From Cephalotus follicularis (lineage: Eukaryota; Streptophyta; Magnoliopsida; Oxalidales; Cephalotaceae), in the NCBI GenBank assembly GCA_001972305.1, contig BDDD01001469.1, forward strand, positions 69,040 through 133,039: DNA of 64,000 nucleotides, written 5' to 3'. Both the position numbers and the translations under genes were made by a program. The notes beneath the pieces are model-generated. The model ran no database searches. It had not been told where the DNA came from and was given only the letters and a program-made list of their open reading frames with translations. Within the stretch, counting starts at the first letter, position 1. The number at the start of each line of letters is the position of its first letter. Of the stretch, positions 6,771 through 56,133 are shown one piece after another.

Positions 6771-7026
6771 AGGCGTCGACACCCACGCTTTAAACGTCGC
6801 TGCTTAGACTTAATTTTGAAAAAGGAAATCGTTTTTAACTGTTGACACTTTGCTTTCTTAGGCAACGCTTGTCAAAGCGTCGACGCTAAGTCCTTAAGCA
6901 TCACCGATTATGCCTTCATCTAATTATTTGAAAGGCTCTGTACCTAAGCGTTGACGCTCAAAACGCAAAATGTCACTGCTTAAGTGCAAAGCGTTGTGCT
7001 TAAGATCAAGGCATCGCTGCTTAGGC
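6771..7026. repeat. GCGTCGACGC-type palindrome cluster
   Basis: Copies include GCGTCGAC (about 6773), AAGCGTCGACGC (about 6876) and decayed forms such as GCGTTGACGC, AACGTCGCTGCTT and GCATCGCTGCTTAGG. Many variants differ from the palindrome by C-to-T or G-to-A at CpG. Confidence 0.75.
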
Positions 7027-7259
7027 ATTCAGTTTTTTCGCAACTGTTTTTAAAGCATGTTTTTCTCACGAGCCCTTTTCTAGGCTCGTGTAAGGTAAAG
7101 GCTGAGTTTCTTCCCATGTTTTTCAAAGATGACAGGGTAAGGGTAAGAGATAGTCTATAGATGTGTTCATCGTAGAGTGAATTATAACTCCTAGTTAGTT
7201 GACTTTCATTCGACTGATCCCTCAACTAGAGCTACTCTTGGTGTGTGATTTGTTGAGCT

Positions 7260-7611
7260 CCTATTGGTCTACCAATAGGCAACCAATTCTAGTCGATCTC
7301 CTATTGGCTTACCGATCAATGACTAGAAGTATAAATCTTGAGTTTGTGCTGCCTTCGAGAAGGTTTATACTCACAATGGATCTTGTGACCGATTGAGCTC
7401 CTATCAGTCTACCGATAGGCAATTGGGTCTAATGGACTCTTATTGGTCTATCGATAGGCATTAGATGTCTAGGCCTTGAGCTTGTGCCACCTTCCGGTTG
7501 ATCGTATGATCGTATGCTATGGTATGACTATGAATCTGTAACTAGTTGAGCTCTTATAGGTTTACCTGTAGGTAACTAGTTCTAGTGAGTTCCTGTCGGT
7601 CTACCGGTAGG
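7260..7611. repeat. Three doublets of a 19-bp palindrome
   Basis: Imperfect palindromes of the type CTATTGGTCTACCAATAGG lie at about 7261, 7301, 7401, 7440, 7554 and 7593. Within each doublet the spacing is 39-40 bases, and doublets repeat every 140-153 bases. Loop sequence GTCTACC is better kept than the arms, which vary in both halves. Confidence 0.75.
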
Positions 7612-8357
7612 CACTAGATTTTCTTAACCTTGAGGTTTGGTCGGCTTGGACTTACAGATGGTGTATGTTTGTTTAACTACTTAAATAGTCTGGTATGGGA
7701 CAATGTAAATATCTAGTTAACCTCTTATTTGTATGATAGATATATGAATAAGAGTGTATACTTAGGCTAATGGTCTATATATAGGCTGGTATGGGATGGT
7801 TTTATATGTGGATTCATTCACTGCAATTGTTCACGCATTATGCCATGACATGCATTGATATTTGCGATACTTGATCATATCATCAGCATGGTGGTTGTAT
7901 TTTTGGGAAGCATTTAACTGGACCATCCTTCAGGATGGGGCATCTTTATATGTTCAGGCATGGATGGACTATGGATTAGTGGCTATGGGTACGAATACAA
8001 AGAAAAGTGAAGGTAAAGGTGATTGGAGCATGGATGTAAGAAGGATTTCTCTTGTGGTCTCTTGTAGGATCATGCGCTTTAAGGAATTGTATTTGGATAG
8101 TATGTTACGTATGTGAGCGATGTTAAGGATTTGTTGTTATTATGTAATGATTAGCATGTGCTATGTATGTCATGATAATGGAGTGTCATGGAATGTATTA
8201 ATGTTTAAGATGTAATTGAATGGATGCACGCACATATGGTTAAGTTTTTAAGTTGTATGATTTTTCCCTGTACGGAATAGACTTATTAGTACTCGACATA
8301 AGTGATTGAATGGATTTGGGTAACGTCACAGACCCTCTACGGGTTCGGGGTGCCACA

Positions 8358-8803
8358 GTCAGTGTCAATGCCATTTCAAAATCAATGTGTATATCGATAG
8401 TCTAATCACAGAAGATAGTAATTCGAAAAGGGTGGCTAGATGGGTCTAGTTATCTTGGATCTGCAAAAAAAGAAGAAGCTAAACTTGCTTAGTGGTGGTA
8501 CCAACTCGAGTACATACTCAGTTGTGGTGCCAGTCGAGCATATACGTAGTGATATTGCTATCCACGCATGTACATAGTGGTGGTGCCATCTGTTAGGGTA
8601 TATAATGGTCATACATTGGTGTTGTTAAAGATAAGTCTTGCAAGCCAGGTTGTCTAGTAACAATAATAATAGTTTGTAATAAACATTATAATTCAATAAA
8701 GGATGATCTTTATATTAATCAATGGCTCTTGTTCATTTATAAATGTTTATATATATGATCAATGAATGTCCATGGAATAAAGTTCGATGACTTTGTGTTG
8801 GTG
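8358..8803. other. Unassigned AT-rich sequence with a 28-bp tandem repeat
   Basis: No gene is seen. From 8491 to 8591 about three and a half copies of a 28-29-bp unit occur, recognised by AGTGGTGGTGCCA followed by TCGAGCATATAC. The rest is AT-rich without a recognisable element end. Confidence 0.5.
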
Positions 8804-10460: not shown

Positions 10461-10991
10461 CTAAGTCTTAGGCGTCGACGCTTTGAATGTTTAAAGGGGC
10501 TAAGCGTCGACTTGTATTGCTCATCATGGGGCATAAGCGTCGACGCTTAGGTAAGGGGTCAACGCCTACGTTATGTAGCAGGATGGAGTTGACATCTTCC
10601 TCCTTGCGCATTAACGCGTAAACCTACTGTCCAAATTGTGCACTTTTGGCATTGTCGTGTAAATGATGGCGTTGTCGTCTTAATGTTGAATTTCTAGCAC
10701 GTTGATGCCAATGAGATTGGTTTTGACAAAAATCATAAATCTGCAGATTTGTTCATCCTTAAGTACAAAACGTCGACACTTCCATTGTACCCGTCAGCGC
10801 TTAAGAGTTAGGCATCGACGCTTGGCTCTGTTTTTTTTTTTTAGGTTTTTCACAATTTAGCTCATTCTTCATGCACTTTGTCTTTTCAGCTTTATACCTG
10901 AAAATCAACATAACACAACCAAAGTAGTATATTCCAAGTATAAAAATATCACAAATAAATTATTAAAAAGAACACATTTTTATGCTAAACA
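10461..10991 (-). repeat. Athila 3' LTR, partial
   Basis: This segment matches 47720-48283 closely (CTTAGGCGTCGACGCTTTG, GCAGATTTGTTCATCCTTAAG, ATTTTTATGCTAAACA). On the minus strand the LTR begins TGTTTAGCATAAAAATGTG. The adjacent AAACTTTGCTTGTCCTC, read as GAGGACAAGCAAAGTTT on the minus strand, is the conserved motif found just before the Athila polypurine tract, and sets the orientation. Confidence 0.7.
10471..10821. repeat. GCGTCGACGC-type palindrome cluster (Athila 3' LTR)
   Basis: Exact GTCGAC cores stand at about 10473, 10506, 10539 and 10772, with decayed copies such as GCATCGACGC and GTCAACGCC between them. The cluster corresponds to 47711-48118 in the other Athila LTR. Confidence 0.75.
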
Positions 10992-21438: not shown

Positions 21439-23265
21439 TGATGGAATCGGATGAACCGAATCCGGAGCCATAAATGGACTATGGAGTGTAGGGTGTAGAA
21501 CAAAAACAAAAACATATAAACATGGCAGCGGAAGAACACCCAATAAAACAAATGCAGTCCATAATGGCGTGTCCACAGACCACATGGATCACCACATCAT
21601 CAACAAAATTGAATTGGCGACACCATAGCATACAATGGTGACACACAAGCATGGCAAGAAGATAAGGACCAAGAGATATACCAGTGGGTGAAGGCTCCTT
21701 CTTTCTTTGCCGCTACACGCTTGAGTAGATTCCCTCTTTAATCTTCTCCAAGTCACTGGAACAGCAAGCAATCCAACCAGCAATAACAGAGAACCAAGTA
21801 TATGAACTCTCTCTCTCTCTCTCACTAAGCTTAGAAAAGGTAAATTGATATTGACCAATGAAGTCAATAATCAATCCACCCGAGATAAGCACTTGCTTGG
21901 TGTATCACAAATGAAAGGAACACACTATACAGAGAAGAATCTGAAGTCAGTTGCCCAACAAAAACTTTACTCCTCCTGTCTTCATTTTCTGCAGAAAATG
22001 TTTATAACTAGCCTCCTCCTTCTCTCTCCCACTCTCCCATTCACTTAGGATCATGGTCCTCACTCCTAGGGAGTCTATGGCCGTGATCCCCACGTTCCCA
22101 TTACATGAAAGAATGGGAGATGGCTGCTGGAGATGAGAGAAAAAATGTGCCCACGAAGTGAGCTCGTGCACAGGTTGCACGTTCTGCTCAAAGACGTCGA
22201 CGCCTTCTAAAGGACATCGACGCTTATGCAATGTGGTGCTAAGAACATCGACTCTTTCTAAAAAACATCGATGCCCATAAAAACTTTAAGCATCGACGTC
22301 TTTCTAAAAGACGTCGACGCTTTGTCTGGCCAGTGAAGTAAGAGTCTAACTCTTTTAGTGATCTCCTGTACCTTTCGAATATTGGTTAAGTAAGATCAAA
22401 CATATGTGTTTCCACAAAATGCAAAATCCACATAACCGATATTTGACACCAAGACTTAATGTGTCCAACATATCAAAGAACTCATTATAATGCAGGGACC
22501 TTTTAAAATCTTGGTTAAAACAATATGTGTTCATAAATTACCGAAATACCCCTAGGGTCTGGTTTAGCCATTATAAATGGTCCTTGACCAATTTAAATGC
22601 TATTGGAATAATATCCAAATACTATCCAGATGGAAAAATTAATCTAATTAATTTTCTCATAATTTATTACACACCTTATAAACCTTGGATTTTCTAAGTC
22701 GTCGGTTCACGTGTACTATAATCCCTTGTCATGCTTGGCCCCGATTGAGGTTTAGGGTAAGGATATGTGTCAACCTTAGATAATACCTCAATGACTAAAA
22801 TATCTGATCATTACTAGGATCTTTGGTAAACTCTCTGGAAAAGTAATTTCCAGTCTACCTCAACCTTGGCCAAGGATTTCATAAGTCCAAAGTATAATCA
22901 GATTATAATAGAGCCGATCACCTTCGCTCAGGTGTGACAATCCCATATTACGCACTCACTTATATTCGTATAGATTCGATCATACCCAAAGACCACCCGA
23001 TTGCCAGCCCTGCGCAAGGACTGAGTAAGGTGGAGATCAAAGCATAACCGTCTCCATACAATATAGAGCAGTCGCTCAGGTCTATGGATCAGATGAGTTT
23101 GAGAACTCGCTAAGTGATCATCACTTATACACAACCGCAACAAGTAGGAGTCACTACTGACACGAGAATAGCGACTATCCAAATAGTGTCTCCTATGCGG
23201 GTCCTGTTCAGTGTACACACCATCCGACCAAGCATTTGTCTTGTGAAGTGGAAATGAGTACCAAC
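21439..23265 (-). repeat. Element D 3' LTR
   Basis: Matches 26376-28005 nearly base for base. After that the two LTRs differ, so the left one lacks the TCTAACA side. It contains a CT microsatellite (21806-21824) and a GTCGAC-type cluster (22192-22322). A short reading frame at 21196-21585, repeated at 26328-26522, is shared only because the LTR is duplicated. Confidence 0.75.
22192..22322. repeat. ACGTCGACGC-type cluster in D 3' LTR
   Basis: Five or six copies stand at 20-30-base spacing: AAGACGTCGACGCC, GACATCGACGC, AACATCGACTC, ACATCGATGCC, GCATCGACGTC and AGACGTCGACGC. The same set, with extra CpG-type changes, is at 27128-27258. Confidence 0.8.
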
Positions 23266-23269
23266 CAGC

Positions 23270-25060: not shown

Positions 25061-26363
25061 GTTAAGACTTATTATTAAAGTGAGGGAATTTGCGGTCTCA
25101 TGTTTTAATTACCGAGCCATTAATTAATTCATTGGTTGTATTAGCCAATTCCAATTAATTACGGCTTATCATGCAAGACGTGTATCTTATGCACCTTGGA
25201 CATATTTCTAAAATATGTCAATGGATTGGCCAGGACATTATTAGTAGTGACTTGAGCCCAAAGTCACTACTAGATCTTCCTAGGTGTAACGATTTAAATC
25301 TATTTATTACAACAATAACTTTGCATACATGGCCTTCAAAAGTCTTGTGCTCCATTTCTCTTTTCCTCCATCTCTCCTTGTAAGGTCTTCTTTTACATAA
25401 AGAACTTTACATTTTTGAAAGAAAAAATTACATTTAAAAATACAAGGAAAAAATTACAAAAGAAAGGAAAATTAAATGGTGCACGCAGGCACCTTATTAC
25501 AAACCTTTAAAGTAATAAATAAATAAATAAATCCATCCACACAAGAAAAACCACAAACTAGGTCTATGTCCTTATTGGGCCATCCATTGTGCATAAGACT
25601 TATATAATATCCAATATTATAAAACACAAATAAAACAAATGCCATAAATAATAACCAATCAAACAATTTAATTTAAGGATTGTTAACTGATCAAACTCCT
25701 ACTAAATCAAGCAATGATTTTTGATTTTCTAACTGCCAAAATGTATAAAATCCAATTTTATTAAAAACAGTTTTTTTATAAAGACGTCGACGCTTCCCAG
25801 AAGGCGTCGACACATTTTATGAAAATTACTGGAAAAGGGCGTCGATGCATAATACGAGCATCAATGCATTTCTCAAGAACTGTTGAAAAAAGGCGTCGAC
25901 GTTTATCAATAACATCGACGTTTTTCCTGGAAATGATGAACAAGGCATCGACGTCTATCAATAGCATCGACGCGTTTCCTGGAAAGATGAACACGACATC
26001 GACGTCTATCAGTAACATCGACGTGTTTCCTGGAAAGATGAACACGACATTGACGTCTATCAAGAACGTCGACGTCTATAGCCCCTTGGGCAGTTTCTGC
26101 ATTTCAAAAAATTCAGAAAAATAATGGTTTAGACTTTGGCATTCCTATCTGGAAATCCAAACTGCACTATGCATGTTCCAAACATAATTCTAAACACATT
26201 ATATCAAAATCACCAGGTCAAAAACACAATGAAATCCAATTTCATGCAATTTTCACTAAGGCACTTTGAAAATCTAGTTTGATCATAAAACACATCCATT
26301 AATTAAACCATTAATCAGTACATCATCTTAAGGCATAAATTCAATCAAGGAAGATGTGGGACG
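25061..26363 (+). repeat. LTR-like sequence shared with 58348-59600
   Basis: The first 600 bases track 58348-58990: GTTAAGACTTATTATTAAA, CAATTAATTCATTGGTT, CCAATTCCAATTAATTACGG, then a TTACAAACC/AAGTAATAAATAAA block and GCATAAGAC. The rest has a 51-bp tandem repeat with GTCGAC-type motifs. It reaches the primer-binding site of element D. Whether it is the D leader or a separate LTR piece is not resolved. Confidence 0.5.
25784..26080. repeat. 51-bp tandem repeat with paired TCGACG motifs
   Basis: After two leading copies (25786, 25806) the array settles into about three and a half units of 51 bases from 25893. Each unit has two TCGACG cores 19 bases apart, followed by TTTCCTGGAAAGATGAACA. TTTCCTGGAAA is itself a palindrome. 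Confidence 0.8.
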
Positions 26364-26375: not shown

Positions 26376-28214
26376 TGATGGAATCGGATGAACCGAATCC
26401 GGAACCATAAATGGACTATGGAGTGTAGGGTGTAGAACAAAAACAAAAACATATAAACATGGCAGTGGAAGAACACCCAATAAAACAAATGCAGTCCATA
26501 ATGGCGTGTCCACAGACCACATGGATCACCACATCATCAACAAAATTGAATTGGCGACACCATAGCATACAATGGTGACACACAAGCATGGGAAGAAGAG
26601 AAGGGCCAAGAGATATACCAGCGGGTGAAGGCCCCTTCTTTCTTTGCCGCTACACGCTTGAGTAGATTCCCTCTTTAATCTTCTCCAAGTCACTGGAACA
26701 GCAAGCAATCCAACCATCAATAACAGAGAACCAAGTATATGAACTCTCTCTCTCTCTCTCACTAAGCTTAGAAAAGGTAAATTGATATTGACCAATGAAG
26801 TCAATAATCAATCCACCCTAGATAAGCACTTGCTTGGTGTATCACAAATGAAAGGAACACACTCTGCAGAGAAGAATCTGAAGTCACTTGCCCAGCAAAA
26901 ACTCTACTCCTCCTCTCTTCATTTTCTGTAGAAAATGTTTATAACTAGCCTCCTCCTTCTCTCTCCCACTCTCCCATTCACTTAGGATCATGGTTCTCAC
27001 TCCTAGGGAGTCTGTGGCCATGATCCCCACATTCCCATAACATGCAAGAATGGGAGATGGCTGCTGGAGATGAGAGAGAAAACGTGCCCATGAAGTGAGC
27101 TCGTGCACAGGTTGCACGTTCTGCTCAAAGACGTCGATGCCTCCAAAGGACATCGACGCCTATGCAATGTGGTGCTAAGAACATCGACTCTTTCTAAATG
27201 ACATTGATGCCTATAAAAACGTTAAGCATCGACGTCTTTCTAAAAGACGTTGACGCTTTGTCTGGCCAGTGAAGTAATAAGAGTCTAACTCTTTTAGTGA
27301 TCTCCTATACCCTTCGAATATTGGTTAAGTAAGATCAAACATATGTGTTTCCACAAAATGCAAAATCCACATAACCGATATTTGACTCCAAGAGTTAATG
27401 TGTCCAACATATCAAAGAACTAATCATTATAAGGCAGGGACCCTTTAAAATCTTGGTTAAAACAAGATGTGTTCATAAATTACCAAAATACCCCTAGGGT
27501 CCGGTTTAGCCATTATAAATGGTCCTTGACCAATTTAAATGATATTGGAATAATATCCAAATATTATCCAGATGAAAAAATTAATCTAATTAATTTTCCC
27601 ATAATTTATTACACACCTTATAAACCCTGGATTTTCTAAGTCGTCAGTTCACGTGTACTATAATCCCTTGTCATGCTTGGCCCCGATTAAGGTCTAGGGT
27701 AAGGATATGTGTCAACCTTAGATAATACCTCAATGACTAAAATATCTGATCATTACGAGGACCTTTGGTAAACTCTCCAAAAATCTAATTTCCAGTCTAC
27801 CTCAACCTTGGCCAAGGATTTCATAAGTCCAAATTATAATCAGATTATAATAGAGCCGACCACCTTCGCTCAGATGTGACAATCCCATATTGCGCACTCA
27901 CTTATATTCGTATAGATTCGATCATACCCAAATACCACCCGATTGCCAGTCCTGCGCAAGGACTGGGTAAGGTGGAGATCAAAGCATAACCGTCTCTCTC
28001 ACAGCCTCCATGCTAGGCATCCAACCTCATGTCAGGGCATCACAAGTGTAAGCAGGTAAATAATAAACTACTTCAATTAAGTGATAAAACACAAGTGATA
28101 TAGCCATAACAAAATTAGCACGCATCATATATATAAGGAATAAGATTGTTTCATACAAGATAAGATATAATTTGACAACCCATCTAATGGCTTGTCGGGT
28201 CACTATATCTAACA
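26376..28214 (-). repeat. Element D 5' LTR
   Basis: 1839 bases. On the minus strand it begins TGTTAGATATAGTGACCCG and ends CCGATTCCATCA. The beginning resembles the other copia LTRs here (3821 leftward, 32292 rightward, 48632 leftward). A GTCGAC-type cluster lies at 27128-27258. It is followed by the CTTAA target duplication. Confidence 0.8.
27128..27258. repeat. ACGTCGACGC-type cluster in D 5' LTR
   Basis: Counterpart of 22192-22322. Compared with that copy, several sites changed by CpG transitions (GTCGACGCC to GTCGATGCC, CATCGATGCC to CATTGATGCC, ACGTCGACGC to ACGTTGACGC). Confidence 0.8.
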
Positions 28215-36015: not shown

Positions 36016-37503
36016 TGTAACACCCCCGATTCGGAGGGAGTCGTTACGGTTCCTAATCCGAGACTAAGCATAACCTATCTTATAACATGGCTCAATTTTA
36101 TTCCTTTTTATCAATTTATTAACTTAGCATATATCCCTATTTAACTATAAATCAAGGTTTTCCTTTATTCTTACTATCAAATTATTAAGTCATCTTTATT
36201 TCAAATTGCGTGATGGTCAATATATATATATAATCTAATAATGGTCTAGCAACTTTAATCAAAATATGAAAACTTAAACATAAACCCAAACTTAAACATA
36301 GTTCAAAGTCATAACTAACAGACATAATATTGTTCAAATAGGGGTCATAACACAACCATAAAATAACTAAGCATAAACGAGTCCATCTCCTAAGTGATCC
36401 TTATCATAAGTGACATCTCGCTGACAGGGGTCCAGTCGACTGTGAAAGGCCAAACAGTCGACTGTTTCACAAGGCAGTCGACTATTCTGGGCGACAGAAC
36501 AGCAAAAACATAGCAATTCAATGAAATTTTGATGTCAAAACTCCAATGTTATAATACCAGAAGATTACCAACATTTAAACAAGACTTATGTGACTTAATC
36601 ATGATATTTAAACATCCAGAATCAAAAGTTCAGGCAATTGGAGATCATGCTTTTAAGAGAGAAGCAATTTTCCAATTTATTACATGCATAGCTTATGATC
36701 AATTTTCTGTCATTCACCCATTGTTAGGTTCGAAATCAGTTTACTAGCATTACCAAACTCTTCAGGACTTGCTAGCAATATCATAAACAGTAACAAAACA
36801 TGCATGGCAGGGAATCAAAAATAAAACTCACTAGCAACCACATGAAATAGAATTGGATAACATTAAACTAATTGTAATTGTTAAACCATAATAACAGAGG
36901 AAGACAAACCTGGTATGATGATCAAAGGAGAACAAAACGAATTCTAATCTTGCAGGTTCGGCTCGGCTCTAGGAGGAAGATACATAGTGGAGGCAGAACA
37001 ATGAACATATAGCATACATATATAATATGGGAAAGGTAATTTAGGTCATGGTAATGCAGAAAAGGAATCCAAAATCTGTTAGAATAGGGAAAGAGGCAAA
37101 ATTTTCGGGATTGAGGGAAAGAAAGGGAAAGCGGAATCGGTTTTGGGAGAGAAAGAAAGCAAGAGTATGGGAGAGGGAGGGAAGAAATAGGAAGAACAAA
37201 TAAAATTGACATATTTCTTTTACTTCCAATAAAATGCTTTTGCCTATTACTAATAAAAACTGATTTAATAATTATACAAAATATCAAACAATTAATTTTA
37301 TTTTTCTCATAATCCTTATTACCTTAATTTACAAAAGCCCAAAGATGGTACTATTTAGCCTAAGACATAAAAGTCCAAAAATTATATCATATAATCCAAA
37401 CACAAGAGTCCATAAAATAAAATAGGCCAACATAAAATAACAAAGCTAAATAAAATCAAATAAAAATCCGAAATTTATGCACGTGAATGAACGAGGTATT
37501 ACA
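36016..37503 (-). repeat. Tekay element 3' LTR, short form
   Basis: Shares its outer 500 bases with 39012-39575 and its inner 810 bases with 41527-42340. The middle is much shorter than in the 5' LTR. Three CAGTCGACTG palindromes lie at 36433-36485. The inner part has a purine-rich stretch (37085-37200) that reads CT-rich on the coding strand. Confidence 0.8.
36433..36485. repeat. Three CAGTCGACTG palindromes (Tekay 3' LTR)
   Basis: GTCGAC cores at about 36435, 36457 and 36477, 20-23 bases apart. The second sits in AAACAGTCGACTGTTT, a 16-bp perfect palindrome. The same three are in the other LTR at 39491-39543. Confidence 0.85.
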
Positions 37504-39007: not shown

Positions 39008-39490
39008 TCTCTGTAACACCCCCGATTTAGAGGGAGTCGTTACGGTTCCTAATCCGAGACTAAGCATAACCTATCTTATAACATGACATAATTTTATTCC
39101 TTTTTATCAATTTATTAACTTAGCATATATCCCTATTTAACTATAAATCAAGGTTTGCCTTTATTCTTACTATCAAATTATTAACTCATCTTTATTTCAA
39201 ATTGCGTGATGGTCAATATATCTATATAATCTAATAATGGTCTACCAACTTTAATCAAAATATGAAAACTTAAACATAAACCCAAACTTAAACATAGTTC
39301 GAAGTCATAACTAAAAGACATAATATTGTTCAAATAGGGGTCCTAACATAACCATAAAATAACTAAGCATAAACGAGTCCATCTCCTAAGTGATCCTTAT
39401 CATAAGTGACATCTCGCTCATCACACATTGCCCGGATGCTGTCCCAGAATACCTGCCGCATGGAAACAAAAACGCGGCTTGACAGGGGTC

Positions 39491-39543
39491 CAGTCGACTG
39501 TGAAAGGCCAAACAGTCGACTGTTTCACAAGGCAGTCGACTAT
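39491..39543. repeat. Three CAGTCGACTG palindromes (Tekay 5' LTR)
   Basis: Exact counterparts of 36433-36485, with no differences at the three cores. Confidence 0.85.
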
Positions 39544-40605
39544 TCTGGGCGACAGAACAGCAAAAACATAGCAAGTTCCCAACGTCCTTGCTCAATCTGT
39601 AATTGTAGGGGTTAGCCGTTGTCCTCACTTGGCTAAGTAGGAAGATAATGTATGCTAGAGAATATATGAATGCAACATGTATGACAGTTTATATCAAAAT
39701 AATGTTTCAGTGGACCAATATATAAGCAATCATGCCAAGTGGCCATAAACAGTTCATATGCAAGAATACCGCACAAGGGTACAATCAATTCATTCAGTGG
39801 TTTGGGTGTCACATGTCGCTAACTCCTAGCACCAACTGTGCACCACCTAACTGTCACCCTACGCTCCTAGGATGATAGAAAAGGTAACATTTACTACCGG
39901 CGTTGGCGGGTAGTTTAACAGTAATTTCTGCAATTGCAGACAGTGGGGTGATACTCTGGCCAACTCCTGGCACCCAGGATCACATCCATAGTCAGTGATA
40001 TCCTCCATCACTCAACTACGGCAATAAGCATAGACAATCCATTCAATCAGTACAATCGATAGCAATATTACATATATAATTAATATGCAATATCAAGTGT
40101 TTTCTTTAGAAACATTTATCAGTTCAGTAATCATACATCTCATGTGAGGAAACGATATCAGTACAGTAGTGGTTTCCATATGTGGAAACAAAACAGTAGG
40201 TACCTCACATGTAGGAGGAAAATCAGTAGTTATCTTTAACAAGAAGTGTTCTTTTTGAAAATGATAGTAAATATCATAATTTTGGTTTCAAGTGCCATAG
40301 ATGGTTTCAATCTATAAACTATCAGTAGTAGTGGTGTTAATAGCACCAAACATTATATACTAACATAAGTAGCATATGCAGTAATCAAGGCAGTAGTTTT
40401 TGTAAATAGTAATTCTTCATTGAAAGTGATGTTTAAACCATAAATTGTGCATATAGCACATAGTTTCATTCGATCAGTGAAATATCAATAGTAATGATGT
40501 TAAATAACATCAACAGTATATATTATATGATGGTATCATATACATTCAATAGCAATGTAAAAACAGTAGCAAATCAATCAATTGTTATGCAATTTCTGCC
40601 CAGAA

Positions 40606-40717
40606 TAGTCGACTGCCCTCAAGAACCAGTCGGCTGTTGGGTTGTGTAGTCGACTGCTGGGTCTTGCCAGTCGATTGGATCAATTGTGTAGTCGACTGTT
40701 TTCAATAACAGTCGACT
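40606..40717. repeat. GTCGACTG cluster in the middle of the Tekay 5' LTR
   Basis: Four exact GTCGAC cores (about 40608, 40649, 40691, 40711) and two variants (GTCGGCTG, GTCGATTG) at about 20-base spacing. The last pair is arranged GTCGACTGTTTTCAATAACA then GTCGACTA. Confidence 0.8.
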
Positions 40718-42340
40718 ATTTTTGCCCAGAATTGTAGGCAGAACAGTGTAAATGTGATACAATTTCAATGCCAATCAATTCAATGCAAGTAGAAGTTAAC
40801 ATACATGAAATGCATGGACATATCTTCCAAAACATAACACTACCCCTACCTCAATTTGTTATCCCAAGATCAATTGCAAGTGATCTTTCTCATTGAGGTT
40901 TCCAAAGCCTTTTTCCAAGCTTTCACCAACAATCCTTTTTAATCTCAGCAGTTCAATCTATGCATGTTTATGGATACATGCAACAGTAACAATAGATTCA
41001 GTAACACTTAGGAAACTCTAATCCATAATAGTTTTAGTCATTAGTCCATTAAGCTTATTTAACTCTCTTTATCACATCTCATGCATTTGGTCCAACTATA
41101 TCAATTAATTGCCTCCTAAGTGGACAGTAGATGTGTTTGTATATCCATAAGGAAGTCAGTAGCTTATTATAGAACTAACAACAGCTTTAATAACCAATTT
41201 AGAGATTGCATATTCATTTACTTGAACCAAAGTGCTACATTTCATATCAATCCCTTAACTCCTAGGAGATGTTAACCAATCATGTTAACAAAAGATTAAG
41301 TATTCTCTTAACCTTACTGTCAGATTACAACAACACAGGGAGTTCGAATTTGAACTTACCAGGAAGGAGTCCAAGCTTCGAAGTTCTTCTTCCTTTGAGC
41401 TCTACTCCAATCTTTTATGCAAGCTCCTTTAATTCTCCAGCAATTCCCTCTTTTCACAGTGTTTCTAACACTTCTTCACAGTCCATGCATGGCTGATATA
41501 GGGCCTGGAGTGGAGAATTCGCCAGGTTATAGCTTATGATCAATTTTCTGTCATTCACCCATTGTTAGGTTCAAAATCTGTTTACTAGCATTACCAGACT
41601 CTTCAGGACTTGCTAGCAATCTCATAAACAGTAACAAAACATGCATGGCAATGAATCAGAACTAAAACTCACTAGCAACCGCATAAAATAGAATTGGATA
41701 ACATTAAACTAATTTTAATTGTTAAACCATAATAACAGAGGAAGACAAACCTAGTATGATGATCAAAGGAGAACAAAACGAATTCTAATCTTGCAGGTTC
41801 GGCTCTTGGAGGAAGATACACAGTGGAGGCACAACAATGAACATATAGCATACATATATAATATGGAAAAGGTAATTTAGGTCATGGTAATGCAGAAAAG
41901 GAATCCAAAATCTGTTAGAATAGGGAAAGAGGCAAAATTTTCGGGATTGAGGGAGAGAAAGGGAAGGCAGAATCGGTTTTGGGAGAGAAAGAAAGCAAGA
42001 GTACGGGAGAGGGAGGGAAGAACTAGAAAGAACAAATAAAATTGCCATATCTCTTTTATTTCCAATAAAATGCTTTTGCCTATTACTAATGAAAACTGAT
42101 TTAATAATTATACACAATATCAAACAATTAATTTTATTTTTCTCATAATCCTTATTACCTTAATTTATCAAAGGCCCAAAGATGGTACTATTTAGCCTAA
42201 GAAATAAAAGTCCAAAAATTATATCATATAATCCAAACACAAGAGTCCATAAAATAAAATAGGCCAACATAAAATAACAAAGCTAAATAAAATCAAATAA
42301 AAATCCGAAATTTATGCACGTGAACGAACGGGGTATTACA

Positions 42341-42609: not shown

Positions 42610-43806
42610 TGTTGTGCCCCGAACCGCGGGAGTAAACCCCAATGATCCGACGTGTGATATACATTCCCACCAATCCATTTATATCATATAATTCATACTC
42701 CAAAAAGTGCTATAAATTTAAAACTTTAAATCAAAGTCAAATAAGCGGAAGAATCATATATACATCAGCGGAATAAATCAATCCAAATAAAAAAAAACTC
42801 TTAAAATCTCCCGAAATTTCGGCATGAAGTATTCGTTTATAGGACTAAACTCCCTGTAAAGAAAAACTCAATTTATATCTCAACACTCCCGAAGGAGGAA
42901 ACAGCAGTTTTTGTATATATACGGGCTCAGCCCTCAGTAATCACAACTAAACCAGTATCAGATCATTCTAATGCCTCAAATGATGGGCTTGTCCCTGTTT
43001 AATACATCAATACACATATCATAAGCATTGCCACATGTCGGAAGGTCGATAGCTGAAATAAAACATCACTATATCATCTTTATATTTGTCTCAAATACAT
43101 AGGGTTCCTTTTCACAATCCTTATATTCAATTCATATAAGCAGAACCAAATACAAGAAACTCCATATACAATTTTCTAACAAAATCTGTTATAGAAGACC
43201 TGTCATCCTCAGCTTACCTTGTTGCAATCCAACACCTGTGCCTGAGCCTGACCCATTCCGCACACAGGGGAAATGGGTCAGCGACATAATGTCGTGTAGG
43301 TATACTATGCTATGCATGCAACAGTATAACGGTGTATGTGTGCAATAGTATATCAATGTATGTCATGTAGTGCATCAGCATAATGGTGATATGCGTGCAA
43401 CAGTATAATATATATATGTATGGTATGTCGTGTGCACAAATGACAATTGCAGGCGGCGTCAGTATACCAACTGTCCCTAAGCAGTGGTATACTGGGCTGG
43501 TCCTAATCACATAAAATCCATAGGCCTACACACAATCCATATAACAATCAATATCAATTATAGGGACAATCAGTCCGTAGGTCTGAGTACTACTCTGCCC
43601 CTCCGACCCGAGATAGTGCTACCACCGACTACCTACCCTTTTGAGGTCGTAGCCGAGTGGGGAAGAGATAACGCTTATCACATCATGGCTAAGCCGTAAA
43701 AATGGTTAGAGCCCGTAAATATAGTGGTAAAGCCGTAAAAACGGTCAGAACCCGTAGTATGTGGTAAAGCCGTAAAAAAAGTTTTAAAAAGCACAAGTAT
43801 AAAGTG

Positions 43807-44066
43807 TCAACGGTTTGTTTTAAACATAAGGCGTCGACTGTTTGGTTTAACTCATAAAAGCGTCGACTGTAAGTTTAACACATAAAAGCGTCGACTGTAA
43901 GTTTAACACATAAAAGCGTCGACTGTAAGTTTAACACATAAAAGTGTCGATTGTAAGTTTAACACATAAAAGCGTCGACTGTAAGTTTAACACATAAAAG
44001 CGTCGACTGTAAGTTTAACACATAAAAGTGTCGACAGGTTTAGTTTTGAAAGCATAAAGCGTCGAC
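43807..44066. repeat. 28-bp tandem array of GCGTCGACTG units
   Basis: Seven units stand at an exact 28-base period (cores at 43862, 43890, 43918, 43946, 43974, 44002 and 44030), each reading GCGTCGACTGTAAGTTTAAC then ACATAAAA. Two looser copies at 43833 and 44061 frame them. One unit has GTCGATTG. Near-perfect units suggest recent expansion. Confidence 0.92.
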
Positions 44067-44489
44067 GGCTTTGATAGAAAATGTAGTTTGTGAAAGAGTT
44101 CGTAAATCAATGGAACTATGTCCGAAACAGTTCAAAACCTTTTAAAATTCATCCCATAGCCCATGAATTGAGAGAAGGCATGAATTCATCTTCTCTTAAT
44201 TCAACGTCGAACCCTTATATCATATGCCATATGCAGTATATATATCCATATGTATGCTGTATATATATATATATACACAATCATGCATCCACACAAATAC
44301 AATTCGTACACATCAATCCATATAATTATTTAGAATGCATGAATGTAATGCAAGCAATAGTATAACCTACCTCATAGCAACTGAGCTCGTAAATCTCGAA
44401 AATCCTCTATCCTTGATCGTTTCGCTTATCCTTGATCATTTCCTTTATCCTGCATGCACAACACATTTCCGTTACACTCTACACACGGA

Positions 44490-45270: not shown

Positions 45271-45635
45271 ATTTGTGAAGCACCTGGCGCCAGGCGCCTG
45301 GCACTATTCTTTTTCTTTTCTTTTATTTTCTTTTTTCTTTAACTTTTTTGCATCTTCTTTAGTATTTAAAAGCCAAAATACTAAGGCTTGGGTCCCATTT
45401 AATCCGCAATTTGCGATATTAATTATCAGAAAGGGTACCAAAATAATCGCAATAAAAATGTGAACATAGGGACTTATTGTCGCGCATTAAAAATGGGCTT
45501 TATTATTCATTTCGGGCCTTACGATTTGCGGCTCCAATACGCGATGCCTTTTATTAATTCGAGCTCCATCGGCTCAATACGGCCATACATTGTGCCAATA
45601 TTAAAATAACTATTCATAAAATTTGGGGCCTTACA

Positions 45636-45640
45636 CTAAA
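45636..45640. repeat. Target duplication CTAAA, right of solo LTR
   Basis: Exact copy of 42605-42609. Confidence 0.9.
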
Positions 45641-46436: not shown

Positions 46437-46590
46437 TAAGCGTCGACATTTATGTCTTGGCCATCAACGCTTTGGATTTGCGTTGACGCTTTGAATTTTT
46501 GAAGGTACTAGGCGTCTACTTGTATCGTTCATTATGGGGCATACTTTGAGCGTTAAGCATCGACGCTTAGGTAAGGCATCGACGCCTACG
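46437..46590. repeat. GTCGAC-type cluster, first Athila 5' LTR
   Basis: AAGCGTCGACATT, GCGTTGACGCTTTG, GCATCGACGCTTAGG and GGCATCGACGCC. Most are CpG-decayed relatives of AAGCGTCGACGCTT; only one exact GTCGAC remains. Confidence 0.75.
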
Positions 46591-46591
46591 T

Positions 46592-46745: not shown

Positions 46746-48283
46746 TTTCACGTCAAAAGAATATTTCAAATTTATACCGCAAGTGCACGGTTGTACAGTA
46801 ACTGGTTGAACACTAGAAAATCAAGTTAAATTAATTTTAATCTATTCAACCTAGGCATAGCATGAAAAATCAAAGGCTTTTATCTAAAACTACTCATAAA
46901 TATGCAAAATAAACTAAATTACTGAAAACAGGCTGAAGGCATCGACGTTTTGTCAAGGCGTCGAAGTGAATAGTTACTGAATTGGAAAACTAACAGAAAC
47001 AACTATGGAATTTGTGAACTAATTACAGCAGAAAATAAACTAACTAAAATATATAAGAGAAAAGAGGTTTTAGGGTATAGAAACTCACCATAGATTATAT
47101 TGAACAATTCTCTTACTTGAACGATCAAACCTTGATAAACAACGCCAGCTAGGTCGATACGAAGTGTGACTGTGATGATAAATTATATGAGTAATCATCC
47201 TAGGTCTATACAGAGAACGACAGTGGCAGAAAATTGGATGAGTAGACATGCTAGGTCTATACGGAGTGTGTTCGTTGTGACAAACTGTATGATTAGACTC
47301 CGTTGATTCCGTTGAAAACCATTTATTCAGCAACTTTCATATTCACCGACAAAGTGTTTGTGGATTTTAATCAGACAGACAAAGTGTGTGTGAAGGAAAA
47401 AAATTGAAGAACATATCGAATATTCAAGGATTTTTATTTATGGAATTGAAACAATACAATTTAGGTTTTGTTCTAACCCAAAAATCTTAAGAGTTTAGCT
47501 ACTAAACATTGTAAAATAAAAACTGAAATTGATTAAAGAAAAGTGGCTACAAAGCTTGTCCCTAACTTTGTTCACTTGTTTTTATGACCTAGCTTAATCT
47601 ATTTATACATAAAACCCATGCAACAAGAAAAGTAAAAATTTTAACTTACTAAAACTTGTTTAAGGAAATAATTACAAGAGGAAAACTTTCCAAATTTGCA
47701 ATTTGCTGTCGTAAGCGTAGATGCTTAAGTCTTAGGCGTCGACGCTTTGGATTTGCGTTGACGCTTTGAATGTTTGAAGGCGCTAAGTGTCGACTTGTAT
47801 CATTGATTATGGGGAATACTTTGAGCATTAAGCATCGACGCCTACGTTATGAGCAAGATGGCGTTGACATCTTCCTCTTTGCATGTTAACGCGTAAAACT
47901 ACTGTCCGAATTGTGCAGTTTTGGTGTTGACATGTAAATGAAGGCATTATCGTGTTGATGTTGAATTCCCAGCACGTTGACGCCAATTAGTTTGGTATTG
48001 ACGAAAATCATAAATCTACAGATTTGTTCATCCTTAAGTGCAAAGCGTCGACGCTTCCATTGTACCCGTCACCGCTTAAGAGTTAGGCGTCGACGCTTAT
48101 AGTCTATGCGTCGACGTTTAGCTCTGTTTTCTGTAGATTTTTCAGATTTTAGCTCATTTTTCATGTACTTTGGTCTTTTCATCTTTATACCTAAAATCAA
48201 CATAACACAACAAAAGTAGTCTTTTCCAAGTATAAAAATATCACAAATAAATTATTAAAAATAACACATTTTTATGCTAAACA
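46746..48283 (-). repeat. Second Athila 5' LTR
   Basis: About 1.54 kb. On the minus strand it begins TGTTTAGCATAAAAATGTG and ends near AAATATTCTTTTGACGTGAA. It is the most complete Athila LTR in the window. The GTCGAC-type cluster is at 47711-48118. Right of it, copia LTR sequence begins at once (48284). Confidence 0.8.
47711..48118. repeat. GCGTCGACGC-type cluster, second Athila LTR
   Basis: Exact cores at about 47738, 47788, 48047, 48088 and 48110, most inside AAGCGTCGACGCTT or GGCGTCGACGCTT. Decayed forms GCGTTGACGC, GCATCGACGCC and GGCGTTGACATC lie between them. Confidence 0.85.
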
Positions 48284-48632
48284 ATACTCCACCCTCCAAC
48301 CAGCGGGAGCGAGCATAACGTGGCAAGTCTAACCGATTCACTTATGCCCCATATAAATGAAACTATGACTTGGAATAGTTTAGTCACAGGGAATAAGGGA
48401 GTCGTTCTCATAGCCCCCGACCCGACATCCAACCCTTGATGTGACTGGGCACCATTTGTGTAAGCAGATAAAACTACTTCAATGATGTGATAAACACATA
48501 CGGATTGCCAATAATAATAATAAAGTATACACATATGTCACACAAATGGAATAAGACTGTTTTAACCCAGAAATAGTAACCCTTATATCTTGCCACTCAG
48601 TGGCTTGATGGGTCATTATCTCCAATAATCTC
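48284..48632 (-). repeat. Copia 3' LTR, partial, with polypurine tract beside it
   Basis: Minus strand starts TTGGAGATAATGACCCATCA, like the D LTR start TGTTAGATATAGTGACCCG, and continues with AAACAGTCTTATTCC as in D. CCAAGTGGGAGATTA just upstream (48633-48648) is the copia polypurine tract. GGCAAGT...GAACC and GACTTGGAA blocks recur at 3490-3550. Confidence 0.65.
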
Positions 48633-49920: not shown

Positions 49921-51081
49921 TGAATAAACTAGGGGGGGGTGAATTTTAGTTTCTAAAAACTTAATTAATTTTTTACAAATCTAAGTTAAAATCAATGAAC
50001 AATATATATGTGCAATCAAAAGCAAATAAGTAAACTAATTTTAATGAGAAAGAGTTAGAGAATTTGCAAACACGATTTTAGAGTGGTTCGGCTTAACTTT
50101 TGCCTACGTCCACTTTTCCCAAGAATCTCCTTGAGTTTCCACTAGTCTCTGAATAAAATTTCGAGTGCTATTCGGTACGCCTTTGTGATTGACCTCAATC
50201 ACTTACAATCCTCTTTGGGTTCACTCCCCAATCTCTCTTAGGATTCACTTCCCTATTACAATCAAAGTGTAAAAAGAATAATGTTTGTTCTTAACCTCTC
50301 AAAGGTTGGATTTTACAAGATAATATCTCTCAATCTAAGTAGGAACAAATATGAGCTAAGACACAAGACAAGAGCTTTTGAAGGAGACTTGATGTTTTTG
50401 AATGCTTGTAGTTGATTTTTCTTAATTGATCTTTGTATGTATGTTCACTTGTATTCTTGTTGTATTCTTTCTTCAAAAACTACTTGTTTATAGCCGTTTC
50501 TTGCTTCATAAATCCGTTGGATGTGTCTTGAAATTTGTTGCTTCAAAAACGGCTTATTAAAACTCTGTCAGAAATTTTTTCAGTTGTTCAAAGCGTCGAC
50601 AGTTTACCTCAAAGCGTCGCCACTTATATGACCGTTGGGCAATTCAAATTTGAATTTTATGGTCAAAGCGCCGGCGTTCTGGATTTTGGAGTCGACCGTT
50701 TTCTCAAAGCGCTGATGCTTTGTGTTGAGCATCGTCGCTTTTGTCAAATTGATTGGCTCCAAGAAATCTCTGGTTTTAACCACTGACAAATGGTGTCAAA
50801 GCGCAGACGCTTTGATTTAAAGTGCTGGCGCTTTCATTTAAGCGTTGACGGTTTGGACACTTAGTGCTTTCCTCGAAACGCTTCATCGGTTGATGCTTTG
50901 TTCCTTGTTTCGACGCTTGCACAAAGAGCTGACGCTTACTTCCTGAGCATCGACGCTTTAAGCTGTGTCTGCAATTTTCTCGCTGTTTTGCACATTCTAT
51001 CATTTTCTTGCACATAAAGAAACTTTGTTAAAACACAAATATGTTATCATCAAAACTAGGATTGAGACATAAATGTCAACA
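49921..51081 (-). repeat. SIRE-like 3' LTR
   Basis: 1161 bases. Contains AGAGTGGTTCGGC...TTGCCTACGTCCAC (50080-50110), a block well known in SIRE LTRs, and a GTCGAC-type cluster at 50590-50970 that occupies the part nearest the coding region. Confidence 0.82.
50590..50970. repeat. AAAGCGTCGACGCTTT-type cluster, SIRE 3' LTR
   Basis: More than a dozen units such as AAAGCGTCGACAG, AAAGCGTCGCCAC, AAAGCGCTGATGC, AAAGCGCAGACGC and GAGCATCGACGCTTTA, spaced 20-40 bases apart. The AAAGCG and GCTTT arms are better kept than the centre in this family. Confidence 0.8.
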
Positions 51082-51904
51082 ATCTCCCCCTTTTTGATGA
51101 TGAGAAAATTTGCTTCATTTTAAACACAAGTTTTAAGCAATATAACAATAATGAACAAGTATAAAATTTGCTTCATTTTCAACACACGTTTTAAGCAATA
51201 TAAAAATAATGCACAAGTATAAAATTTGCTTCATTTTAAACACACATTTTAAGCAATATAACAATAATGCAGAGGTATAAAACATATTCATGTACACATG
51301 CTCCCCCTTAATTCAATATCTCCCCCTTAGTTAAACAATGAGTGTTTACTTGTCATTATTTCCCCATCTTTTCCTATACTTTCTCCCCCTCTTTGTTATC
51401 ATTTCAAAAAGGATTGAACTTCTTACAATTAAAACTATTTATGGTTATAAAGCAATGTCACTATAACTTTGAATCATTCACATTGCACACCAAGCATTCA
51501 TTAATACAATTCAATACATTAACACAATATCATTCACATTAGATAAAGTACATAGTGAAATATTACAAAGTTGTTGATTACATCATAAGTTCACATTACA
51601 AACTTTAATAGCACAAACCATAAAATGTTTTTCACAACAAATAAATACATAATCATAACATGCATAATGAATCATGATATGCATGAGCTCAATCGTCCAT
51701 TGGAGTGCCTTCATTATCTCCAACCATATCACCCTCCAAGTTATCTGTCCCTGCATCATCTCACTCAATGTCATCGTCATCTTGGCTTGAAGAGGAGATA
51801 AGCCCTTCGTTGCCAATTATTCCTATTTCCCCAAAATTCTTTGCCATCCTCTTTTGCCTTCTTTTAATTGTGTCATCATTCACCTTCATTTCTTGGACAT
51901 TTTG
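51082..51904 (-). other. SIRE polypurine tract and 3' noncoding region
   Basis: ATCTCCCCCTTTTTGATGATG at 51082 is the polypurine tract read backwards. A 60-base AT-rich unit with AAAATTTGCTTCATTTT and CACAAGTTTTAAGCAATATA repeats about three times at 51105-51275. No other coding is seen up to the extra ORF. Confidence 0.7.
51105..51275. repeat. 60-bp AT-rich tandem repeat
   Basis: Three units with TTTGCTTCATTTT, CACA(A/C)GTTTTAAGCAATATAA and CAATAATG(A/C)ACAAGTATAA in order. Position just inside the polypurine tract. Confidence 0.75.
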
Positions 51905-52934: not shown

Positions 52935-53052
52935 CTTTGGTGATTGTTTGAGGTTTAATAACGATTTTCGACAGTATAGGGGTTCGAAATCACCAGAGAC
53001 AGTGTTTTTGAGTTAGGGATTTCAGATTTTAGGGTTGAAATGGGCTGACAGA

Positions 53053-53170
53053 CGGCGCTTTCTGTTTTAAAATACGACTAAAGCGTCGGTGCTTTGATCA
53101 ATTCCCCTAATTCGAACCCTAATTTTAGTGTAAAGCGTTGACGCTTTAATTTCAGGCGTTGGCTCTTTGC
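53053..53170. repeat. GCGTCG-type motifs inside SIRE, upstream of the extra ORF
   Basis: GGCGCTTTCTG, AAAGCGTCGGTGCTTT, AAAGCGTTGACGCTTT and AGGCGTTGGCTCTTT occur within 120 bases between RNase H and the extra ORF start at 52934. This is the one cluster that is clearly outside an LTR in this element. Confidence 0.6.
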
Positions 53171-53279
53171 TCTGTTTTCTGTCGATTTTTCCAAAAGTGC
53201 GTATGAATGAATGCATATGATGCTATACTCAATATATAAGTAATTTAAGCAAAAATCATACAAGTATACAATCATATTA

Positions 53280-53920
53280 ATCATTCAATTTCACATAAAC
53301 GTAGTTCCATTCTAAATTTGGAGAAAGTTTGTTCATCTAAAGGTTTTGTGAAAATGTCCGCGACTTGTTCTTGAGTCAGAACGAAGACTAATTCAATGTC
53401 ACATTTTTCAATATGGTCTTTTATAAAGTGATACCTAATATCAATATGCTTTGTCCTAGAATGATGTACGGGATTTTTTTCCTAGACAAATTGCACACCT
53501 AATTAGCACTTTCTCAAAATTAAAGCCATAGTCAAGAAGTTGTTGTTTCATCCTCATGATTTGAGCGCAACAACTTCCCTCGGCAATGTACTCAGCTTCG
53601 GTAGTGGAAAGTGCTACCGAATTTTGTTTCTTGCTAAACCAAGAAATAAGCATATTGCCTAAAAATTGACACGTGCCACTTGTACTTTTTCTATCTACTT
53701 TGTATCCTCCGAAGTTGGTATCGGAGTATGTATGTAGGTCAAATGATGATTTTCTAGGATACCATAATCCTAAAGAGGGTGTATATGCTAGATATTTAAA
53801 AATTCTTTTTACCGCATGCAAGTGAGATTCCTTAGGGCATGCTTGAAATCTAGCACATAAGCACACACTAAACAAGATATCCGGCCTACTTGCTGTTAAA
53901 TAAAGCAACGAATCTACCAT
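53280..53920 (-). pseudogene. SIRE RT C-terminus and RNase H
   Basis: The minus strand has MVDSLLYLTASRPDILFSV, CARFQACPKESHLHAVKRIF, TYSDTNFGGYKVDRKSTSG, ALSTTEAEYIAEGSCCAQ, then HSRTKHIDIRYHFI and QVADIFTKPL. These are the hallmark copia blocks of the RT end and of RNase H (D-E-D pattern in YSD..., TEAEY). It would remove the RNA strand during cDNA synthesis. It stops near 53280, after which the extra ORF's upstream region starts. Broken, few breaks. Confidence 0.82.
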
Positions 53921-54080
53921 GCTTCTATAGAGTTTTTGGTCTATAGGTTTACCTTATTGCTTTCTTCCTCTTATTCTTCCTCCAAGGCCATCAAAGCTAT
54001 TTGAGCCACTTCTTCATTTGAGTCTTCATCCGAACTAGACTAATCACTATCATCCCATGTTGCGATCATAGCTTTCTTCT

Positions 54081-55010
54081 TCAAGAGAGAGATCCTTCTT
54101 TTTGAGCCGTGGGAAATCGCGGTTTGTTGCACTGGAAGCAAATGATCTCTTCTAACTTGCTTGATTCTCCCTTTTGATAGACCTTCTTGTTTGGCTTTCC
54201 ACCAAACTTCTTCTTGCTAGCTAGGAACTTCTTGAATTTTCGTGTGATGAGGACTAGCTCTTCATTATCATCATCATCCTCGGAATCTTCGATTAGAGAT
54301 GATTTGAATGCCACTATCTTCGTTTTCTTTTTCTCCTTCTCCTCATCATCATATTTCTTTTGCATCGAAAGCTCATGGTTCATTAGTGACCCTAGAAGAT
54401 CCTCTAGCGGAAGGACGTTGCGATTCTTTGCTTCTTCAATTGCGGTAACTTTCGGCATCCAAGACCTTGGCAAGCACCTAAGAATTTTTCTCACCATTTC
54501 ACTGTTATAATAAGTTTTATCCAAAGCTTGTAATGCATTAATAATATTTGTAAATCTAGAGAACATGGATTTAATGTCTTCGTTCTCATTCATAGTGAAC
54601 ATTTCATACTCATGGACTAGCATACTAATCTTAGCTTCTTTAACTTGATTTGTCCCTTCATAGGTGACCTCAAGTCTATCCCACATTTCCTTGGCGGAAA
54701 TGCAAGACAAAATCCTGTTGAAGTCATTTGAGTTTATAGCACAAATGATAATGTGTTTAGCTTTAGCATTTATTTCAACTCTTCTTCTATCATTATCATC
54801 ATAAAGATTTCTAGGTTTAGGAACAACATCCCCGTTTTCAAGTGTGACGGTAGGGAAATTTGGACCATCAACCATGAGGTCCCATAAGTTATAATCAAGG
54901 CATTGAATGAAGATGGTCATCTTAGCCTTGCAATGGCCATAGTTATTACCATCGAAAAAAGGGGGTTTTGACATATTTTGGCTCTCTCCTATGTTCGTGT
55001 TCATTGTCAT
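54081..55010 (-). pseudogene. gag: SIRE gag
   Basis: The minus strand encodes about 300 residues: MTMNTNIGESQNMSKPPF with FDGNNYGHCKAKMTIFIQ (residues 18-35), the UBN2/DUF4219-type start of copia Gag. IICAINSNDFNRILSCISAK and EMWDRLEVTYEGTNQVKEAK (about 91-130) follow, then LVHEYEMFTMNENEDIKSMF, NHELSMQKKYDDEEKEKKK, an acidic EDSEDDDDNEE patch, a Lys-rich tract and the first half of a zinc knuckle (ICFQCNKP). Gag would form the cytoplasmic particle. It starts only some ten bases inside the 5' LTR, much closer than usual. Confidence 0.82.
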
Positions 55011-55019
55011 TCTAGATCG

Positions 55020-56133
55020 TTAAAGGCTCTAGGGGGGTGAATTGTAGTTTCTAAAAATTTAATTAATTTTTTACAAATCTAAGTTAAAATCAATGAACAA
55101 TATATATGTGCAATCAAAAGCAAATAACTAAACTAATTTTAAAGAGAGAGAGTTAGAGAATTTGCAAACACGGTTTTAGAGTGTTTCGGCTTAACTCTTG
55201 CCTACGTCCACTTTTCCCAAGGATCTCCTTGAGTTTCCACTAGTCTCCGAATAAAATTTCGGGTGCTATTCGGTACACCTTTGTGATTGGCCTCAATCAC
55301 TTACAATCCTCTTTGGGTTCACTCCCCAATCTCTCTTAGGGTTCACTCCCCTATTACAATCAAAGTGTAAAAAGAATAATGTTTGTTCTTAACCTCTCAA
55401 AGGTATGAGCTAAGACACAAGACAAGAGCTTTTGAAAGAGACTTGATGATTTTGAATGCTTGTAGTTGATTTTTCATAATTGATCGTTGTATGTATGTTC
55501 ACTTGTATTCTTGTTGTATTCTTTCTTAAAAAACTACTTGTTTATAGCCGTTTCTTGCTTCATAAATCCGTTGGATGTGTCTTGAAATTTGTTGCTTCAA
55601 AAACGGCGTATTAAAACTCTGTCAGAAAGTTTTCCAGCTGTTCAAAGCGTCGACAGTTTGCCTCAAAGCGTCGCCGCTTATATGACCGTTGGGCAGTTCA
55701 AATTTGAATTGTCTGATCAAAGTGCTGGCGTTCTGGATTTTGGAGTCGACCGTTTCCTCAAAGCGATGACGCTTTGTGTTGAGCGTCGTCGATTTTGTCA
55801 AATTGATTGGCTCCAAGAAATCTCTGGTTTTAACCGCTGACAAATGGTGTCAAAGCACAGACGTTTTGATTTAAAGCCCTGTCGCTTTCATTTAAGCATT
55901 GACGGTTTGGACACTTACTCCTTTCCTCGAAACGCTTCATCGGTTGACGCTTTGTTCCTTGCTTTGACGCTTGCACAGCACTGACGCTTACTTCCTGAGC
56001 ATTGACGCTTTAAGCTGTGTCTGCAATTTTCTTGCTGTTTTGCACATTCTACCTTTTTCTTGCACATAAAGACACTTTGTTAAAACACAAATATGTTATC
56101 ATCAAAACTAGGATTGAGACATAAATGTCAACA
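55020..56133 (-). repeat. SIRE-like 5' LTR
   Basis: Counterpart of 49921-51081; about 45 bases shorter. It ends ATGTCAACA at 56133, followed by GATTT. No clear primer-binding site is visible between it and gag. GTCGAC-type cluster at 55644-56012. Confidence 0.8.
55644..56012. repeat. AAAGCGTCGACGCTTT-type cluster, SIRE 5' LTR
   Basis: Counterpart of 50590-50970 with the same order of units. Differences between the two are often at CpG (GCGCCGGCG against GTGCTGGCG, GCGCTGATGC against GCGATGACGC). Confidence 0.8.

Follow-up and report, generated by a model that had tools for sequence, protein, structure and literature searches.

Retrotransposons and box clusters in the window

The 64-kb stretch of Cephalotus follicularis DNA analysed here (contig BDDD01001469.1; hereafter the window), the source of all counts given below, carries long terminal repeats (LTRs) of several retrotransposon lineages, in which one palindromic box with the core GTCGAC recurs in clusters. 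Forty-five exact GTCGAC were counted, against an expectation of 5.14 ± 2.21 from dinucleotide shuffles (maximum 12 in 100 shuffles) and of 8.9 from base composition; a preliminary description of the same DNA had estimated about 45-50, with 8-9 expected from composition. It had also placed nearly all of them in clusters, and 40 of the 45 did fall within 14 cluster regions that sum to 3,624 bp; the five unclustered sites (409, 2282, 9223, 31138 and 62467) are about the number expected by chance. The shared palindrome arrays are a real feature of this DNA.

Element borders were drawn from self-comparison of the window. All clusters described below lie on the minus strand, except those at 6.7 kb and 43.8 kb, which were given no strand; the orientation of the two elements that carry them is uncertain.

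A copia element of Sirevirus type (49934-56133; LTR pair 49934-51081 and 55032-56133) encodes a Ty1/copia gag (PF14223, E 3e-31); no pol match was found among those of its open reading frames (ORFs) of at least 150 aa that were scanned. Its 3' LTR carries a cluster at 50591..50958 and its 5' LTR one at 55645..56010, each with two exact sites and with 11 boxes at ≤4 mismatches (in 50560-50990 and 55620-56030, respectively). Three extra boxes, with 2, 1 and 4 mismatches, lie at 53081..53167, just 5' of an ORF in env position (53012-52359) whose match to PF20167 falls below the curated Pfam cut-off. Four AGGGGGAG octamers, which resemble the polypurine tract (PPT), adjoin the 3' LTR at 51084..51390 and are the only four on the minus strand.

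The element called Tekay-like, a name taken from the preliminary description, has LTRs at 36016-37503 and 39012-42340, the latter being longer. It encodes a Ty3 gag (PF03732, E 9.7e-13) with 22 matches, including ones named from Apium, Daucus and Asteraceae, and has a primer-binding-site (PBS)-like sequence with one mismatch at 38996-39007, which we take to be of the iMet type. Three AGTCGACT-type boxes lie at 36431..36485 in the first LTR and the same three at 39489..39543 in the second; the second also carries six boxes at 20-21 bp steps, four of them exact, at 40604..40720. This element, with the target repeat CAGAG, and a 3.0-kb solo LTR (42610-45635), with the target repeat CTAAA, are nested insertions inside Athila-like sequence. 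The solo LTR contains an array of 28-bp units with eight exact sites (43802..44070).

The Athila-like sequence itself, named from the preliminary description and from a PBS presumed to be of this kind, survives in three pieces (10472-10992, 45636-46572 and 46884-48284). The first bears a cluster at 10470..10823 with four exact sites (10474, 10506, 10539 and 10772) and is 82.9% identical to 47755-48284; the other two clusters, at 46438..46590 (one exact site, 46442) and 47713..48119 (five exact sites), lie upstream of TATAAATAG.

A further element, D, is bounded by LTRs at 21439-23054 and 26376-27996, with an exact PBS-like site at 26363-26374. Its interior is partly similar to a Ty3 gag-protease region, antisense to the direction that the PBS implies, and its superfamily was left unassigned. 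The first LTR holds a cluster with two exact sites upstream of a TATA (22192..22322). The counterpart in the other LTR (27129..27258), where the preliminary description had placed the motif, holds no exact GTCGAC, only five changed boxes. A second array of D, with four exact sites and a 51-bp tandem unit of two boxes, occupies the leader between the PBS-bearing LTR and the interior (25782..26080). The stretches 23219-25017 and 30007-31838 are inverted copies (77.6%), and an ORF of the latter is related to plant gag-protease proteins.

The remaining cluster (6771..7026; exact sites at 6775 and 6879, together with changed boxes) belongs to an unclassified element. No Pfam family matched any of six ORFs from 2129-9877 at E≤0.1, which leaves the earlier label of chromovirus unsupported. 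About 2 kb to its right, 9098-9342 is 64% identical to the solo LTR over 256 bp and 67% over 168 bp; the elements at 6.7 kb and 43.8 kb are therefore related, and their clusters may not be independent. Just right of the 6.7-kb cluster, 7244-7614 consists of a 39-nt unit present five times and its 25-nt part present six times, and carries a spaced inverted repeat at 7261 (CTATTGGTCTACCAATAG in the first copy), a second and different dyad array. Another tandem array of 23/46 bp, at 18672-18899, contains the dyad CTCCTTCCGAGGAG in its unit. An Rfam search of the window gave no match.

Two sequences had been described as free of the motif, and they are: no exact site occurs between 10777 and 22196, which covers the Tat sequence, or between 31143 and 36435, which covers the copia LTR at 32292.

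Enrichment and form of the box

Longer versions of the box were enriched as well. The window contains 54 AAGCGTCGACGCTT sites, with 2, 7, 19 and 26 at 0, 1, 2 and 3 mismatches, respectively (means of 0, 0, 0.03 and 0.73 in 30 shuffles), and a single one of them, at 30065, lies outside the elements listed above. When all 4096 12-bp palindromes were ranked over the whole window at ≤2 mismatches, AGCGTCGACGCT came first with 40 sites, the runner-up having 30. Ranking palindromes region by region is circular because the regions were picked by their clusters; a fairer control therefore used whole LTRs (12 regions, 10-mer palindromes, one mismatch, 20 null sequences). Here a GTCGAC-centred palindrome showed the largest excess in five of the 12 regions and was among the top five in four others. 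By raw count it exceeded every null palindrome in only two regions, an Athila-like LTR (6 vs 3) and the long Tekay-like LTR (9 vs 5). Other CG-centred palindromes of the window were less raised than GTCGAC (CTCGAG 3, TTCGAA 17, ATCGAT 16). CACGTG was likewise raised, with 19 copies vs 5.5 expected from dinucleotides.

The arms were compared over 30 distinct sites; the other 10 of the 40 cluster sites, being LTR copies or identical repeats, were removed beforehand. According to the preliminary description the arms stay palindromic; this held for the first flanking base, which was complementary in 67% of sites vs 38% after permutation (p 0.0006; C..G 12, A..T 7, T..A 1), and did not clearly hold beyond it, the fifth position covarying only nominally (p 0.046) and the first four positions pooled giving 62/120 complementary pairs vs 53.7 permuted (p 0.051). 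Since covariation was clear only at the first flanking base, the shared element is best written as (C/A)GTCGAC(G/T), flanked by A-rich sequence on the left and by T-rich sequence on the right. Box types also differ between elements, AGTCGACT being found in the Tekay-like element vs a different type in the others. Changed cores were uneven (ATCGAC 17 and GTTGAC 11 vs GTCGAT 5 and GTCAAC 2); a half-site polarity drawn from these counts was dropped because many copies have inherited the same changes and the orientation is uncertain in two cases.

Position, spacing and CpG content of the arrays

Wherever a TATA is clear, namely in two Athila-like copies, two copia LTRs and one D copy, the exact sites precede it. 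On the sense strand of the Athila-like LTRs, the last exact site lies 115 bp (45636 copy) or 136 bp (46884 copy) before TATAAATAG; the corresponding distance is 108 bp in both copia LTRs and 195 bp in the first D copy. In two Athila-like copies, a TATAAAG is located before the cluster.

The boxes are also regularly spaced, the commonest distance between adjacent box centres being 19-22 bp. In a collapsed set of gaps, with one copy taken per family and tandem units merged, 14 of the 36 gaps fell within these bins, which were selected post hoc (null mean 4.9; 0 of 10,000 null draws had as many), and the strength of a 10.5-bp phase was 0.58 vs 0.19 in the null (p 0.0002). When the six-box Tekay-like array was left out, 9/31 gaps still lay at 19-22 bp (p 0.0056) and the phase strength was 0.50 (p 0.0046). 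Tandem duplication may have added to this pattern.

In eight of nine box regions, the observed/expected (o/e) ratio of CpG was 1.15-1.94, compared with 0.28-0.75 in five flanking LTR stretches and 0.63 in the window; the copia clusters gave 1.29 and 1.19 at a G+C content of 44-45%. CpGs also decay fast between the copies of an LTR. CpG transitions affected 12/46 positions in the D LTR pair, 14/44 in the copia pair and 15/37 in the Athila-like pair, vs 3.48%, 4.14% and 8.24% differences, respectively, at other bases; the Tekay-like LTR pieces had 1/9 and 5/12 vs 3.08% and 3.3% elsewhere. Such decay fits a loss of boxes, after insertion, from DNA that was presumably methylated; one D LTR retains no exact site.

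Interpretation of the arrays

Arrays of this kind have a published counterpart, which the preliminary description omitted. According to Bousios et al. 2010 (PMC2829016), the LTRs of Sireviruses contain RM boxes, high-copy palindromes with a CGG-CCG core that form CpG islands upstream of TATA. In that study the boxes are reported from 13 elements and as missing from the other Ty1/copia elements compared, extra boxes are placed 5' of env, and the common binding factor could not be named. The copia element of the window resembles these Sireviruses in its many palindromic boxes per LTR, their short distance from TATA and the clustered PPT-like copies before the 3' LTR; the raised CpG of its box regions may be compared with the Sirevirus CpG islands, and the three boxes beside the ORF in env position with the Sirevirus boxes 5' of env. 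Its core differs, the exact boxes and most of the changed ones having TCGA there. Table entries of the same study include a grape element with CGGTCGACCG, which has a GTCGAC core, and Tnd-1 with ACAATCGATTGT, which lacks CGG-CCG (PMC2829016). Unlike RM boxes, moreover, the boxes described here also occur in Tekay-like, Athila-like, D and solo LTRs, and we therefore name the arrays RM-like rather than RM boxes. The RM motif was termed Sirevirus-specific in a comparison limited to Ty1/copia elements (PMC2829016); because Ty3 elements stood outside it, the boxes in Ty3 LTRs extend that account and do not contradict it. What seems new is a TCGA core common to copia and Ty3-type LTRs within one stretch of a genome.

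On the whole we lean towards reading the clusters as arrays of enhancers comparable to RM boxes, located in the U3 region upstream of the promoter and probably bound by a dimeric factor of the host. The preliminary description had proposed a host factor that binds the palindrome as a dimer; a dimeric binding protein would agree with the position before TATA, with the spacing and with the way the first flanking base covaries across the site, and its binding is predicted from these features. Most likely, a host DNA-binding factor would bind each (C/A)GTCGAC(G/T) palindrome as a dimer; adjacent dimers would stand about two helical turns apart, and the array of dimers would drive transcription from the LTR. 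Methylation of the CpGs within the boxes would oppose this activation. One core is common to D and to the lineages called copia, Tekay-like, Athila-like and solo LTR; the same factor, or members of one factor family, may therefore act on all of them, and a shared host factor for these families is plausible. We infer binding, dimerisation, activation, methylation and the identity of the factor across lineages from the DNA sequence. Some cereal CBF proteins presumably accept GTCGAC, for which the literature passages, with SalI primers or no site at all, gave no support; readings of the box as an auxin-response element, a W-box or a CBF/DREB site were considered and set aside.

Several observations weigh against enhancer arrays of this kind. 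In the whole-LTR control, GTCGAC palindromes stood outside the top five in three of the 12 regions (the second D LTR and both copia LTRs), and the arms covary little past the first base. With respect to spacing, a 19-22 bp gap was present in 6/8 regions, which is not significant (p 0.06), the choice of bins was post hoc, and the solo array has a spacing of 28 bp. When the phase test was run on four site lists with gaps ≤60 bp, 8, 25, 0 and 22 of 2000 null draws matched the observed strength and the best periods were 10.8, 11.7, 10.8 and 16.8; only some site lists indicate a period of about 10.5 bp. With respect to position, more than one TATATA could be the promoter element of the Tekay-like LTRs, whose several candidates make the assignment ambiguous, no TATA was found downstream of the boxes in the examined stretch of the Athila-like copy 10440-10992, changed Athila-like boxes at 45695, 46943 and 46962 lie downstream of TATA, and D has its second array in the leader, between PBS and interior. 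Finally, CpG o/e is just 0.72 in the Tekay-like box region, and the box regions have a G+C content of 36-47%, so that they are CpG peaks and not classical CpG islands.

Possible alternatives: module transfer, RNA structure and chance

The relationships among clusters were examined by pairwise alignment of the regions with the boxes masked (36 pairs), using 100 letter shuffles, not dinucleotide shuffles, as controls. In 34 of the 36 pairs the alignment was no better than with shuffled partners (at least 6/100 shuffles as good). The exceptions were the two Athila-like copies and the 6.7-kb region paired with one Athila-like copy, the printed alignment of which lay outside the boxes. On this ground a common origin of the clusters in a single LTR was rejected; ordinary whole-LTR descent does not account for the pattern.

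The same alignments bear on a second proposal of the preliminary description, the transfer of a short module. A box-spacer-box unit would have arisen once, spread between elements by template switching or recombination, and then multiplied in tandem. Such a history could be combined with an enhancer function; as a rival to it, it attributes the likeness of the arrays to shared history and not to shared need. With the boxes unmasked, the 6.7-kb cluster matches the other Athila-like cluster, in reverse orientation, over 39 columns that span two boxes, and both contain an identical word of 16 bp (score 44, compared with 27 for the best of 100 shuffles); the D leader aligns with the Tekay-like array at a score of 35 (best of 100 shuffles 30; 0/100 as good), the spacer word TCAATAACA being common to both. 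The two-box stretch and the two words may be hints of module exchange. In addition, the sites of the solo array combine one arm of each type, and in maize a single palindrome is reported to occur in copia elements as well as in Helitrons (PMC10760457). Against such a transfer stand the masked pairs, of which 34 show no similarity above shuffles, and the different box type of the Tekay-like element. The shared stretch and words speak for transfer; as the explanation of the arrays, we consider it rather unlikely.

A scan of viral contigs with the copia gag found no relative. Scans of viral contigs with two box-pair patterns, screened by motif count and G+C, returned 85 stretches (80 among the matches listed) and 1, respectively; one of the two AT-rich candidates, in a viral contig (L009:4000-4200), was set aside as unrelated, being a phage-like, GC-rich GGCAGC/GTCGAC repeat inside an ORF. 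Nor did the solo array match anything when plasmids were searched with it. Palindromes as insertion targets were rejected as well because the preference reported in passages of PMC6911290 is weak, and a weak preference cannot produce arrays of one sequence.

The palindromes might instead act as hairpins in the transcript, in small-RNA production and silencing or in packaging, and not as sites of DNA binding. Sense-strand folds of four of five clusters were better than shuffles (copia z -3.23, Athila-like -4.91, D leader -6.33, Tekay-like -5.49), and in passages of two reports the Sirevirus palindromes of maize, clustered in a cis-region of the LTR, are hotspots of small RNA (PMC5311732, PMC10760457). 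The solo array, in spite of its eight exact sites, folded no better than shuffles (z +1.42; 93/100 as good), as computed on the plus strand with its sense uncertain. Furthermore, the U3 before TATA is missing from the 5' end of the genomic RNA, and hairpins do not require a fixed core with varying arms. An RNA function is improbable on this evidence, and the structure is taken as a by-product of the symmetry of the boxes. Least of all do we credit a few chance sites multiplied by copying: LTR pairs, three Athila-like copies and tandem arrays are indeed counted repeatedly, but 30 distinct sites were left once copies and identical repeats had been removed, the highest of 100 dinucleotide shuffles reached 12 vs 45, and other CG-centred palindromes are less raised, though CACGTG stands at 19 vs 5.5.

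Relation to other systems and implications

Enhancer arrays bound by a host factor, the reading that we prefer, would place these boxes beside two further systems. The Sirevirus palindromes of maize likewise form clusters in the LTR, and one of them is reported from more than one superfamily; they have a different sequence, CACCGGACNNNGTCCGGTG, and one of the five arrays folded here lacks a stable structure. The ONSEN LTR, according to passages of PMC11656987, carries a heat element, which is the site of a host transcription factor. As with that heat element, a host-factor site in the control region of the LTR would drive the element, the factor being putative in the present case. It is possible, and we put it forward tentatively, that Ty1- and Ty3-type lineages have converged on one enhancer code, in which case a single dimeric factor could co-activate a large share of the retrotransposons.

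If lineages of both Ty1 and Ty3 type in the same genome do share the box, their unrelated LTRs would represent independent versions of one site, and the factor could therefore be sought directly. Such sharing would further suggest that different retrotransposons respond to one host signal, or that they are silenced through one kind of target.

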